Below, piece after piece: positions 22,602 to 57,472 of a stretch of DNA of 64,000 nucleotides. The DNA comes from Thiohalophilus thiocyanatoxydans. GTDB taxonomy: Bacteria > Pseudomonadota > Gammaproteobacteria > UBA6429 > Thiohalophilaceae. Under the pieces are notes generated by a model. That model had not been told where the DNA came from. It was given only the letters and a program-made list of their open reading frames with translations, and did not search any database. The DNA is taken from positions 124,001 through 188,000 of the forward strand of contig NZ_SOQX01000006.1 of assembly GCF_004366735.1 (NCBI RefSeq), in the 5' to 3' direction. The translations under genes and the position numbers were made by a program. Position 1 is the stretch's first letter. The number at the start of each line of letters is the position of its first letter.

Positions 22602-22658
22602 TGTCAGACATGTCATGACCGGCTGTCAGAAATAGCAGGAAGTGACAGTGTCAGACAT
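22602..22658. promoter_or_regulatory. Probable enhancer (UAS) for the lipoprotein-rhodanese promoter
   Basis: The 10-mer TGTCAGACAT occurs at 22602-22611 and again at 22649-22658, with a 9-of-10 copy TGTCAGAAAT at 22624-22633. Spacings are 22 and 25 bases, about two helical turns. ATGTCATGAC (22610-22619) and the palindrome TGACAGTGTCA (22643-22653) lie in the same stretch. The cluster is about 35-90 bases upstream of the -24 element, a usual position for sigma-54 activator sites. ATGTCATGAC is also found upstream of the porin promoter. Confidence 0.72.
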
Positions 22659-22691: not shown

Positions 22692-22707
22692 TGGCATGCG
22701 ACTTGCT
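22692..22707 (+). promoter_or_regulatory. Sigma-54 (-24/-12) promoter of the lipoprotein-rhodanese operon
   Basis: TGGCATGCGACTTGCT carries the GG and GC dinucleotides exactly 10 bases apart and matches the TGGCAY-N5-TTGCW consensus. It lies 36 bases before the lipoprotein start. An activator gene with a GAFTGA motif, the sigma-54 contact, is only about 1 kb away. Confidence 0.87.
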
Positions 22708-22742
22708 ACTCAGTTGTAAGTGTCTAACTCGAGGAGAGATGA

Positions 22743-22916
22743 ATGCGACTGAAGTTGTTAACGCCCCTGTTGCTGGTACTGGGCTTGTGGGGTTGTGGAT
22801 CGGCACCCGTGGAAGAGAACGAGCGACAGGAAAATGCCAATACGCAAACTGAAACACAACAGAACGATTCGACAGAGGTCAACGAAGAATTATCCGACCT
22901 GGAAGATGATTGCTAG
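22743..22916 (+). CDS. Small acidic lipoprotein (57 aa)
   Basis: The short frame starts at ATG 22743 after CGAGGAGAG, a strong ribosome site. The product has a lipoprotein signal (LLTPLLLVLGLWGC, lipid-bearing Cys18), then a very polar mature part rich in Glu, Asn, Gln, Thr and Asp. It ends in LSDLEDDC with a Cys as the last residue. It is the first gene after a sigma-54 promoter, 45 bases before the rhodanese gene, so the two probably form an operon. I do not recognise a family. The terminal Cys beside an exported sulfurtransferase is suggestive but its role is unknown. Confidence 0.75.
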   Translation: MRLKLLTPLLLVLGLWGCGSAPVEENERQENANTQTETQQNDSTEVNEELSDLEDDC

Positions 22917-22961
22917 ATGTTCGGCAATCAGAATAATCACATAGTGAGGAGAAGAGGCATT

Positions 22962-23627
22962 ATGAAAAAAGCAAAACTAATAAGTAATCTGCTGCTGGCC
23001 GCGACGATTGGTTTTTCATCCGTTGCGTGCGCGGCGAATGACAAACTGGCGGTAAAAATCACCCCGGAACTCGGTGAGGTGCCGGTCAAACATCATGGCA
23101 AGAAGATGGTTATACGCCGTGATCAGGATCAAAAGGCGGTTGTGGACAAGAATTTTTCCAAGACTTCACGCAAGTGTCCGCCATTCTGTATCCAACCGTC
23201 GACACTGGCTCCTGGCGTGGAGACTATTGGGGAAGTTGAAATGCTCGATTATCTGGATCGATTGCATAATGAGGGTGACGATTCAATTCTTGTCGTCGAT
23301 TCGCGGACGCCGGGCTGGGTTGAGAAAGGTACAATTCCCGGATCAGTTAACATTCCCTGGACAAAACTGAATCCGGCAAAAGGGGCTGATCCGTTGACCA
23401 TGAGTGACATCATGACCAACCAGTTTGGTGCCAAGCAGATCGAATCAGGCATCTGGGATTTCAGTAATGTCAAAACGCTGGTCATGTTTTGTAATGGTAT
23501 GTGGTGCGGTCAATCACCCGCCAACATCAAGCAATTACTGAAAATGGGTTATCCGGCGCATAAAATCAAATGGTATCGCGATGGTATGCAGGGCTGGTCA
23601 ATGCTGGGGCTGACAACAGCCAGGTAA
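22962..23627 (+). CDS. Exported rhodanese-domain protein with two cysteine pairs
   Basis: This 221-residue periplasmic or lipid-anchored protein has signal peptide KLISNLLLAATIGFSSVACA; either cleavage after ACA or acylation at Cys23 is possible. A linker carries KCPPFCIQPS (Cys72, Cys76). The rhodanese domain (about 88-218) has VVDSRTPGWVEKGTIPGSVN and an active-site loop CNGMWCGQS with Cys177 as the expected sulfur-carrying residue and a second Cys182. ATG 22962 follows AGGAGAAGAGG; the frame is open further upstream. Family members transfer sulfane sulfur to thiols or cyanide, but the substrate here is not known. Sigma-54 control and a following terminator define a two-gene operon. Confidence 0.88.
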   Translation: MKKAKLISNLLLAATIGFSSVACAANDKLAVKITPELGEVPVKHHGKKMVIRRDQDQKAVVDKNFSKTSRKCPPFCIQPSTLAPGVETIGEVEMLDYLDRLHNEGDDSILVVDSRTPGWVEKGTIPGSVNIPWTKLNPAKGADPLTMSDIMTNQFGAKQIESGIWDFSNVKTLVMFCNGMWCGQSPANIKQLLKMGYPAHKIKWYRDGMQGWSMLGLTTAR

Positions 23628-23698: not shown

Positions 23699-23735
23699 AA
23701 CGCGAGACTTTTCTCCCGGTCTCGCGTTCTTTTTT
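23699..23735 (+). terminator. Rho-independent terminator after the rhodanese gene
   Basis: A perfect 10-bp stem AACGCGAGAC / GTCTCGCGTT with a 10-base loop is followed by CTTTTTT. It ends just before the stop of the convergent regulator gene. On the opposite strand the hairpin is not followed by a T-run, so it mainly serves the plus-strand operon. Confidence 0.93.
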
Positions 23736-23736
23736 A

Positions 23737-25104
23737 TTACAGGGTATTCTGATCGCCGTTTTTTATCTGACGTAAGTGCCGGTAAAGCGTTCGTTCGCTG
23801 ATGCCAAGCTCTTGCGCGGCCTTGACACGATGGCCGCGATGTTTTTCCAGGATAGCCAGTATTTCCTGTTTGTTCACGGTAATATTTCGCCGGTTCAATA
23901 AGGGGTCGCGTGATAGGTTCTCATCATCGACAACAGCGTTGTGCGGCGCAGTGGATAATGGCTCGTCCAGAAACGAGAAATGTTCGGGCTGGAGGGGGTG
24001 CTCATGCGCGAGTATCGAGGCTCTTTCGATAATATTACGCAGCTCCCTGACATTGCCGGGATAATCGTGCTGCATAAGAAGAGTCTGGACCTCCGGTACA
24101 AGAGGAAGCTTGCGTTCCCCGCCGGGTATCATGGACAGAAAATATTCGACCAGTCCGTTTATATCTTCCTTGCGTTCGCGAAGTGGCGGGATATAAATCG
24201 GAAATGCAGTCAGTCTGAAGTAAAGATCCTCCCGGAACTGATTTTGGCGGACCATTTCACGCAGATCACGATGCGTTGCGGCAATGATCCGAATATCGAT
24301 ATCGGTAAATTCCGTGGCGCCGAGGCGTCGTATCTGGCTGGTTTCCAGCAGGCGTAACAGTTTGGTCTGGAGGCTTGCGGACAACTCGCCAATTTCATCA
24401 ATAAACAGTGTGCCGCCTTGTGCGGATTCGATCAGCCCCTGCTTGCGTTTGTCGGCACCGGTGAAGGCACCACGTTCATGGCCAAAAAGTTGACTCTCGA
24501 CCAGGCTTTCGCCCAGGGTCGTGCTGTCAACAACCACCAGGGGACCATTGGCCCGACTGGATTGGCGGTGGATATATTCTGCAACACACTCTTTCCCGAC
24601 CCCGCTTTCTCCCTGCAAGAGTACCGTAGTCTGGGTTGGTGCAACGCGTTGCAGGATTTCGGTCAGTCTGAGCATAACCGGCGATCGTCCCAGCAGTTGG
24701 CGGCCGGTTTCCTCGACACTCGACAGTCTGTTGATGGACTCGCCCATCGACATGATGTTTCCCTGCTCATCAAAGATCGGCATGGCCTCAAGCTGGACAA
24801 GTTCCTCATTACCGTCGCAATCATAATGTGTGTGTATGACATGCGTCGGCTTACTTGACTGGAAGACCGTATCCAGAGGGCAGTGCTCTCCGTGCTGTTG
24901 GCAGGGTACATCACAATGATGCGATATTTTATAGCAAAAGCTGCCAACCACCTTGTCCCGGGTCGTACGGTAATGTTCGAGGTAATGCCGGTTTGCCGCC
25001 TGAATACGATAATCACGTCCTATAATGACAAAGGGTTCGTGATACATATCAATCATTTGCTGACAGGAGGGCAGCAACGTGGATTCAAAATGCTTCTGAT
25101 CCAT
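23737..25104 (-). CDS. Sigma-54-dependent activator with cysteine-cluster PAS domain
   Basis: This enhancer-binding protein of 455 residues has three parts. An N-terminal PAS domain (about 15-125) has Cys57, Cys64, Cys68 and Cys75 in CYKISHHCDVPC...HCPL, a pattern that could bind a metal, an Fe-S cluster or act as a thiol switch. The AAA+ domain has Walker A GESGVGKE (165-172), the sigma-54 contact GAFTGA (212-217) and Walker B GTLFIDEIGE (231-240). A C-terminal Fis-type helix-turn-helix (KAAQELGISERTLYRHLRQI) follows. There is no receiver domain, so it probably senses its signal directly. It lies between two -24/-12 promoters, which are its likely targets. Confidence 0.93.
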   Translation of the reverse strand: MDQKHFESTLLPSCQQMIDMYHEPFVIIGRDYRIQAANRHYLEHYRTTRDKVVGSFCYKISHHCDVPCQQHGEHCPLDTVFQSSKPTHVIHTHYDCDGNEELVQLEAMPIFDEQGNIMSMGESINRLSSVEETGRQLLGRSPVMLRLTEILQRVAPTQTTVLLQGESGVGKECVAEYIHRQSSRANGPLVVVDSTTLGESLVESQLFGHERGAFTGADKRKQGLIESAQGGTLFIDEIGELSASLQTKLLRLLETSQIRRLGATEFTDIDIRIIAATHRDLREMVRQNQFREDLYFRLTAFPIYIPPLRERKEDINGLVEYFLSMIPGGERKLPLVPEVQTLLMQHDYPGNVRELRNIIERASILAHEHPLQPEHFSFLDEPLSTAPHNAVVDDENLSRDPLLNRRNITVNKQEILAILEKHRGHRVKAAQELGISERTLYRHLRQIKNGDQNTL

Positions 25105-25447: not shown

Positions 25448-25487
25448 ATGTCATGACGGACCTGTCAATCTGGCAGTTCTGTCAGGT
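25448..25487. promoter_or_regulatory. Probable enhancer (UAS) for the porin promoter
   Basis: ATGTCATGAC (25448-25457) is shared exactly with the lipoprotein-rhodanese enhancer. TGTCA half-sites follow at 25463-25467 and 25480-25484 (TGTCAGGT). The cluster lies about 120-160 bases upstream of the porin -24 element, a normal distance for a looping sigma-54 activator. Confidence 0.65.
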
Positions 25488-25608: not shown

Positions 25609-25624
25609 TGGCATAACTCTTGCT
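25609..25624 (+). promoter_or_regulatory. Sigma-54 (-24/-12) promoter of the porin gene
   Basis: TGGCATAACTCTTGCT has GG and GC separated by 10 bases and shares TGGCAT-N5-TTGCT with the promoter at 22692-22707. The porin start is about 72 bases downstream. Confidence 0.87.
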
Positions 25625-25656: not shown

Positions 25657-25695
25657 TGTGAATGAAACTTCGATAACAACATTGTGGGAGCGAGT

Positions 25696-26649
25696 ATGAA
25701 ACAAGAATTCAAATTAATGACTGCCGCGGCGGCAGTAGCTGCGGTACTGGGTTCGGCACCGGCTGCCGCCAACGAGGTATATGGTGATGTTCGTCTGTCA
25801 GTGAACAGTATTGACGACAGTTCCGGAACCTCCAGTGACAGCCAGGACAGCAATGCCTCACGGGTTGGTTTTAAAGGCGGGTATGAGCTCGATGGCGGGC
25901 TGAAGGCCCTGTACCACATCGAAGGGGGCGTTAACACGGATGGCGATGATAACAAGGATATGTTTACCAAACGCTTCGCCTTTGCCGGCCTGGCCGGGAA
26001 CTTCGGCAAGGTGTTATACGGCACGCTTTCCTCGCCCTACAAAATGGCCGGGCTCAAGATCGATCCGTACTATGATACCGCAGCCGGTGACAAGTTAAGT
26101 GGCAGGAACTACGGCCTGTCGGATTACACCAACGGCTGGTTTGATAATGTGGTGGCCTATATTACACCGGACATGAACGGGATTCAGGCCAATGCCGTGA
26201 TGGTGATGGATGACGAGGAGAGCAATGATCATCACTTCAATTACGGGGTTAGCTATAACCAGGCCGGGTTCAGTGCGGGTATCCAGTTGCTGGAAGTCAA
26301 TACTGTGGGTTCCGAGGTCGATGCCACCCGTGTTACCGCAGGTTATAAAACGGATCAGTGGAGTGTTGGTGCCAGCATGGAAAATGTCGACCCCGAGGCA
26401 TCGGCTGACACGGATTATCTATATGTCGCCGGTACCTATAACGTCTCCGCGAAAAACACCCTGAAGCTCTCCTACGGGGATGTGGATGATGATGGCACTG
26501 GCATGACCGCGGGAGTTTCCCATGACCTGGGTGAAAAGACCGAACTCTACGCCCTCTACAGTGATATAGATTATGATGATGCTGCCAAGGATAACCGCAC
26601 GGTTATCTCTCTTGGTGTTAGTCACAAGTTCAGTATCGGCGGTAATTAA
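25696..26649 (+). CDS. Gram-negative general porin
   Basis: This outer membrane beta-barrel protein of 317 residues has signal peptide LMTAAAAVAAVLGSAPAAA (cleavage near 25). The mature part has alternating amphipathic strands, a typical first strand EVYGDVRLSVNSI, SRVGFKGGYELDGGLKALYHIEGGV and a final strand TVISLGVSHKFSIGG. The loops are very rich in Asp, which suggests a cation-favouring or low-Ca constriction, though this is inference. ATG 25696 follows TGGGAGCG. Expression is predicted to depend on sigma-54, which is unusual for a general porin. Confidence 0.9.
   Translation: MKQEFKLMTAAAAVAAVLGSAPAAANEVYGDVRLSVNSIDDSSGTSSDSQDSNASRVGFKGGYELDGGLKALYHIEGGVNTDGDDNKDMFTKRFAFAGLAGNFGKVLYGTLSSPYKMAGLKIDPYYDTAAGDKLSGRNYGLSDYTNGWFDNVVAYITPDMNGIQANAVMVMDDEESNDHHFNYGVSYNQAGFSAGIQLLEVNTVGSEVDATRVTAGYKTDQWSVGASMENVDPEASADTDYLYVAGTYNVSAKNTLKLSYGDVDDDGTGMTAGVSHDLGEKTELYALYSDIDYDDAAKDNRTVISLGVSHKFSIGGN

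Positions 26650-56140: not shown

Positions 56141-57472
<1,332 letters not shown>

Follow-up and report, generated by a model that had tools for sequence, protein, structure and literature searches.

A candidate FisR-type sigma-54 locus encoding a small cysteine-tailed protein and an exported rhodanese in Thiohalophilus thiocyanatoxydans

In the sulfur-oxidising gammaproteobacterium Thiohalophilus thiocyanatoxydans a gene for a predicted small lipoprotein and a gene for an exported rhodanese lie behind what appears to be a sigma-54 promoter, which raises the question of what signal would call for an envelope sulfurtransferase and what its small partner might do. We analysed a stretch of 64,000 nucleotides (the window; contig NZ_SOQX01000006.1, positions 124,001 to 188,000), in which the initial annotation had delimited 22692-23627, that is, the promoter through the rhodanese; the upstream boxes, terminator, activator and porin considered below fall outside those coordinates. 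The operon comprises the following features.

22602..22653, + strand: five TGTCA/TGACA boxes, putative activator sites, 39-90 nt upstream of the -24 element
22692..22707, + strand: sigma-54 -24/-12 promoter TGGCATGCGACTTGCT, a perfect match to TGGCAY-N5-TTGCW
22743..22916, + strand: open reading frame for a small acidic lipoprotein of 57 aa ending ...LEDDC, with a lipobox-like L-W-G-C after a hydrophobic stretch
22962..23627, + strand: exported SoxL-like rhodanese of 221 aa (ATG at 22962; Pfam PF00581 Rhodanese, E 2.8e-11)
23699..23728, + strand: terminator-like stem of 11 pairs followed by a T-run

The promoter, previously described as near-perfect, is in fact a perfect match at 22692-22707, and the two genes, read as a 57-residue lipoprotein and an exported rhodanese, were both confirmed, the former by its LWGC lipobox and the latter by its match to PF00581. 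The terminator, which had been called strong, is present as an 11-pair stem with a T-run, although the scan that found this one stem expects 2.3 by chance in the stretch scanned. Perfect sigma-54 sites occur three times within the 64-kb window and nine times in the 2.9 Mb genome, which encodes RpoN, versus three for a reversed control pattern (about one per Mb), and a consensus match alone is weak evidence for the operon promoter. The site at 22692-22707 draws its weight from its position, its upstream boxes and its partial conservation. Five TGTCA/TGACA boxes lie in the 200 nt before the operon versus 0.93 expected (none of 500 shuffles scored as high), and the sister genome (locus L043) has a perfect sigma-54 site before the operon at a distance similar to that in the window. 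A scan for sigma-70-type promoters gave four matches versus 2.4 expected; none was found ahead of the small gene on the + strand, and one (22910-22937, + strand, 9/12 positions) falls immediately ahead of the rhodanese. Of the perfect sigma-54 sites in the window, the third (56498-56513, - strand) was taken as chance, being inside an open reading frame read as enolase, on the opposite strand.

The rhodanese belongs to a family (E up to 1e-60) found in 54/369 genomes of the class, and the same genome encodes two paralogues that have no tail partner of the kind described below. In a 50-row alignment the motifs C72-P-x-F-C76 and C177-N-G-x-x-C182-x-Q-S are among the invariant positions, and the L043 protein is 82% identical to that of the window. 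An AlphaFold2 model (mean pLDDT 84.3, low at 71-76) has an N-terminal helix (4-22) and a single rhodanese domain, export being read from the sequence. The best PDB matches found with this model by Foldseek are rhodanese-like, several of them uncharacterised, and a profile search of the PDB gave two weak matches to rhodanese domains. Plasmid searches returned ten records with a relative of the rhodanese, at less than 60% identity, and five records with a PAS domain. In Marinobacterium (L096, L097 and L098) two rhodaneses of the family stand in tandem behind a single tail protein.

The small protein of the window exceeds the curated cut-off of no Pfam or NCBIfam model. Past position 22 it carries 13 acidic residues versus one basic, and it ends in an acidic run with a terminal cysteine. 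Using a strict pattern for such a tail, we found an open reading frame of this type upstream of the rhodanese in 51/90 loci, the window and the paralogues included. With a slightly different pattern it was present in 48/64 named loci that have 250 nt or more of upstream sequence, versus 0/5703 control ORFs (30-130 aa) from other parts of the same DNA, the two classes being defined unequally, since controls needed a start codon and tails ten open codons before the stop. Among the 16 loci that miss the pattern, L080, L088, L089 and L092 show variant cysteine ends by eye, and in a second sample of 27 further loci the tail was present in 14 of the 26 with enough sequence. The partners are precursors of 43-84 aa with a hypervariable body and, in many members, further cysteines; the sole cysteine common to all 52, which were selected by their tail, stands at the C-terminus or beside it. 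Each of the 52 has a hydrophobic stretch near its N-terminus (starts set by rule, export read from the sequence). A lipoprotein pattern flags 7/52, of which four were accepted on reading (window, L043, L117 and L124), and the LWGC lipobox is present in the window and L043 proteins. The proposal of a dedicated lipoprotein does not extend to the family, as an accepted lipobox is found in 4/52 partners and the tail alone is shared, and lipidation was rejected as the defining trait. To judge from these sequences, the conserved trait is the C-terminal acidic-cysteine tail; the small protein appears to be tethered to a membrane by lipid in this genus and free in the periplasm in most relatives. On a tree of the rhodaneses the tail label needs 10 changes versus 28 when shuffled, in a tree where L065 was filed as lacking a tail that it has, the forks at the base, L048 included, lack resolution and certain long branches are unreliable. 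Net charge does not differ between rhodaneses with and without a tail partner (p 0.46), and rhodanese charge was dropped as a sign of docking with the tail protein.

Convergent to the operon lies a gene for a candidate regulator.

23737..25104, - strand: FisR-like sigma-54 activator with a PAS domain (C57/C68/C75), an AAA+ domain with GAFTGA and a Fis-type HTH

This protein matches the Pfam families Sigma54_activat (E 1.6e-64), PAS_4 and HTH_8, the GAFTGA motif being read in the translation. Its cluster has 12 rows, ten of PAS type and two that are other activators; C57, C68 and C75 (spacing 11/7) are kept in 10/10 PAS-type rows, the window included, and C64 and C96 are found only in the window among those rows. 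The L043 activator is 72% identical to it. A homologue from Cupriavidus metallidurans is 40% identical over 442 columns and has cysteines at 53/64/71, counted from the start chosen; we take C53/C64/C71 to be the three sensing cysteines of FisR. The gene for this homologue is divergent from genes matching the sulfur dioxygenase (E 1.3e-116) and SQR families (E 1.9e-53), both below the curated cut-off. More generally, an SQR-like gene is present in 12/15 regions around homologous activators (15 regions chosen from 28 activator matches, two of them from one genome, with the window and L043, neither of which has such an adjacent gene, left out), the name SQR resting on Pyr_redox_2 and on a best NCBIfam match, below cut-off, to type III SQR. 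FisR of Cupriavidus senses reactive sulfur via three cysteines (PMC9774590; also PMC12170894, PMC8469610), and an Acinetobacter FisR is described without the regulatory cysteines (PMC7315123). A FisR-type regulator is of a described kind and points to sulfide or sulfane sulfur; the initial annotation had offered sulfane sulfur, cyanide or redox stress.

Beyond the activator a second set of sites precedes a porin gene.

25449..25484, + strand: three TGTCA boxes ahead of the porin promoter (0.42 expected; p 0.004)
25609..25624, + strand: second perfect sigma-54 consensus match, TGGCATAACTCTTGCT, before the porin
25684..26649, + strand: porin (Pfam Porin_4, E 1.4e-34)

In L043 the porin is 78% identical and is preceded by the perfect site TGGCACAGCTCTTGCT with four boxes. 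On these sequences the porin is probably a second target of the FisR-like activator, and the locus suggests that FisR-type control extends to envelope functions, the porin included. We pooled the 200 nt before 11 sigma-54 sites, namely those of the operon and the porin in the window and in L043 plus seven further loci, including the two-mismatch site of L075. They contain 40 TGTCA/TGACA boxes versus a shuffle mean of 6.7 and a maximum of 14 in 500 shuffles, a comparison in which the motif was first spotted in the same sequences and the loci were picked for having a site. Counts at individual sampled sites vary, with no box at L069 and two at L071; L195 and L196, which were fetched after the test, have five and four boxes before their sites.

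The initial annotation had proposed that the pair be sought next to a sigma-54 activator with a conserved promoter. We took 79 loci with 450 nt or more of upstream sequence, excluding the window, and scored sites that lie within 650 nt and have no more than one mismatch. Such a site was present at 4/7 loci with the activator versus 4/72 without (Fisher p 0.0014), and a site with at least two boxes at 3/7 versus 3/72 (p 0.008). The three activator loci without such a near site are L075, which has a two-mismatch site with four boxes, and L094 and L099. In the latter two (L094:5149-7654 and L099:5054-7657) a perfect sigma-54 site, with seven and four boxes before it, is followed by an SQR-like gene, the tail protein and the rhodanese, and this operon is divergent from a FisR-like activator. 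Sites without the activator occur at L046, L047, L051 and L071. L051 is without boxes and without the tail; the other three have site and boxes with no activator in view, the sequence ending 239 nt (L046) and 204 nt (L071) past the rhodanese, whereas L047 is not at a contig end. The L046 and L047 genomes each have, at another locus, a gene for a PAS activator (38-40% identical) that stands beside an SQR-like gene.

In the second sample (1.5 kb flanks) a site was initially counted at 6/8 loci with the activator versus 0/18 without; the sites of L185 and L190, first counted as support, lie inside the upstream ORF without boxes and were dropped, leaving 4/8, of which two repeat first-sample loci (L194 and L199 repeat L074 and L076, judged by their sites). 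No convincing site with boxes was found before the pair at L069, L185, L190, L200 and L207, all of which have an adjacent activator. The proposed conservation thus holds at L043, L074, L076, L195 and L196, and before the SQR-like head gene at L094 and L099; it is weak at L075, owing to the two mismatches, and fails or is unclear at L069, L185, L190, L200 and L207. Promoter and activator go together in some lineages but not in others. In the majority of relatives no activator is seen with the pair, and 68/72 loci without it have no near site; most of the family is therefore controlled otherwise.

At L069 the pair, activator and SQR-like gene stand side by side; L043 has no SQR gene that we could find next to the pair, the window neighbourhood shows none, and the SQR-like gene of the window's own genome has no such sigma-54 promoter. 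In the window the neighbours of the pair are a sulfatase-like gene and the activator. The L048 rhodanese shares 58% identity with that of the window and sits in a group of genes read as SoxX, Y, Z, A, a SoxK-like lipoprotein and SoxB, and at L128 and L191 sox-like genes accompany both the tail protein and the rhodanese. Homologues of the L048 SoxZ in the window's own genome pass the Pfam SoxZ cut-off, with three matches, and its SoxYZ loci are on other contigs. Two of these, L131 (C3:164631) and L132 (C1:300947), have identical scores and may reflect a recent duplication; the third is on C2. An ArsR-family gene lies about 0.8-1.5 kb upstream of the rhodanese in L105, L107, L110 and L112; three of the four were compared with NCBIfam and match its ArsR/SmtB model above cut-off, whereas their resemblance to BigR falls short of the cut-off for that model. 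A peroxiredoxin was confirmed near the pair in L105, and similar proteins were seen by eye in the other three. It may be that another sulfur or redox regulator controls the pair in this lineage. At L061 (7710-8270) a DsrE-family protein, exported by reading, follows the pair, and in L087 too the pair is followed by a similar-looking gene. Clustering of the neighbours gave mainly housekeeping-like genes, the commonest including lysA-like upstream (15 loci) and dapF-like downstream (12 loci), named by reading; neither is a sulfur gene.

The idea of a sigma-54 operon for an envelope sulfurtransferase thus has support in the sequence, and as an interpretation it was incomplete. We favour, as the probable reading, a sulfane-sulfur-responsive sigma-54 regulon of FisR type that would make a periplasmic sulfur relay with a small carrier. 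By analogy with FisR, sulfide or polysulfide would modify the three PAS cysteines of the activator, which would bind the TGTCA/TGACA boxes and fire two sigma-54 promoters, those of the porin and of the lipoprotein-rhodanese operon. In the periplasm the SoxL-like rhodanese would be loaded with sulfane sulfur at C177 and exchange it with the single cysteine that ends the acidic tail of the small protein, which could then carry the sulfur on a swinging arm to the next acceptor. It is conceivable, though we hold this broader proposal with some doubt, that these small proteins constitute a new family of minimal persulfide carriers in the periplasm. Each would be a short, variable and acidic chain whose C-terminal cysteine arm a dedicated SoxL-like rhodanese loads or unloads, and more than one class of sulfur sensor would induce them (FisR-like activators in some lineages, BigR-like ArsR proteins in others).

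The same regulon could instead serve a small protein that is no carrier, acting as a scavenger or buffer of persulfide or of a thiophilic metal, or as a chaperone of the rhodanese, with the tail cysteine as ligand. One cysteine surrounded by acidic residues could be a metal site, the hypervariable body has additional cysteines in many members, and no sign of docking came out of the charge test; we nevertheless consider this unlikely, as the one cysteine shared by the 52 partners (by selection) sits at the end of the chain next to a sulfurtransferase, and the pair is sometimes found in sox-like or SQR-like contexts. A fortuitous sigma-54 site is very unlikely. The operon would then be transcribed otherwise and the pair would be a housekeeping envelope sulfurtransferase, as might be argued from the background of about one reversed match per Mb, from the 68/72 loci with neither activator nor near site and from the sigma-70-like match just before the rhodanese; against this, five boxes lie upstream, the perfect site is kept in the sister genome and the site recurs in distant loci with the activator. 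It is highly improbable that the small gene encodes a RiPP-like precursor peptide whose C-terminal core is modified with sulfur supplied by the rhodanese. A signal-like N-terminus, a variable middle, a conserved C-terminal end and an adjacent sulfur-transfer gene would fit such a peptide, but no further modifying enzyme or exporter recurs by eye among the nearest neighbours, and the rhodanese itself looks exported.

The regulator and the enzyme belong to known kinds, and the cysteine-tail pair is one that we have not seen described: a literature search, outside which most subscription papers fall, found no description of the pair, the carrier or the regulon in the texts it covered. FisR (Cupriavidus pinatubonensis, cited in PMC9774590, PMC12170894 and PMC8469610; Acinetobacter, PMC7315123) is likewise a sigma-54 activator encoded beside its target operon, with three sensing cysteines except in Acinetobacter. 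Its homologues adjoin SQR-like genes and its known targets are sulfide-oxidising genes, whereas the adjacent candidates here are a porin and the small protein-rhodanese pair. PspE of E. coli is likewise a periplasmic single-domain rhodanese (PMC10215317, PMC2593051). SoxL, a periplasmic rhodanese of the Allochromatium vinosum sox cluster, is proposed to take sulfur from SoxY (PMC3368242). It too is an exported rhodanese of sulfur oxidisers, the likeness being drawn via the L048 relative; it differs in that it is a sox-cluster gene, whereas the window rhodanese lies outside a sox cluster, behind its own sigma-54 site and with a cysteine-tail partner. To our knowledge, little is understood of how sulfane sulfur crosses the periplasm between SQR or SoxYZ, storage and the oxidation machinery of the cytoplasm, and a recurrent small protein whose C-terminal cysteine is conserved beside a SoxL-like rhodanese is an easily tested candidate for a missing carrier. 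SoxY and DsrC are sulfur carriers with a reactive cysteine on a flexible C-terminal tail. The small protein resembles them in its C-terminal cysteine arm and differs in that no folded carrier domain is expected, its precursors being variable in sequence and 43-84 aa in length, and in that its tail is acidic.
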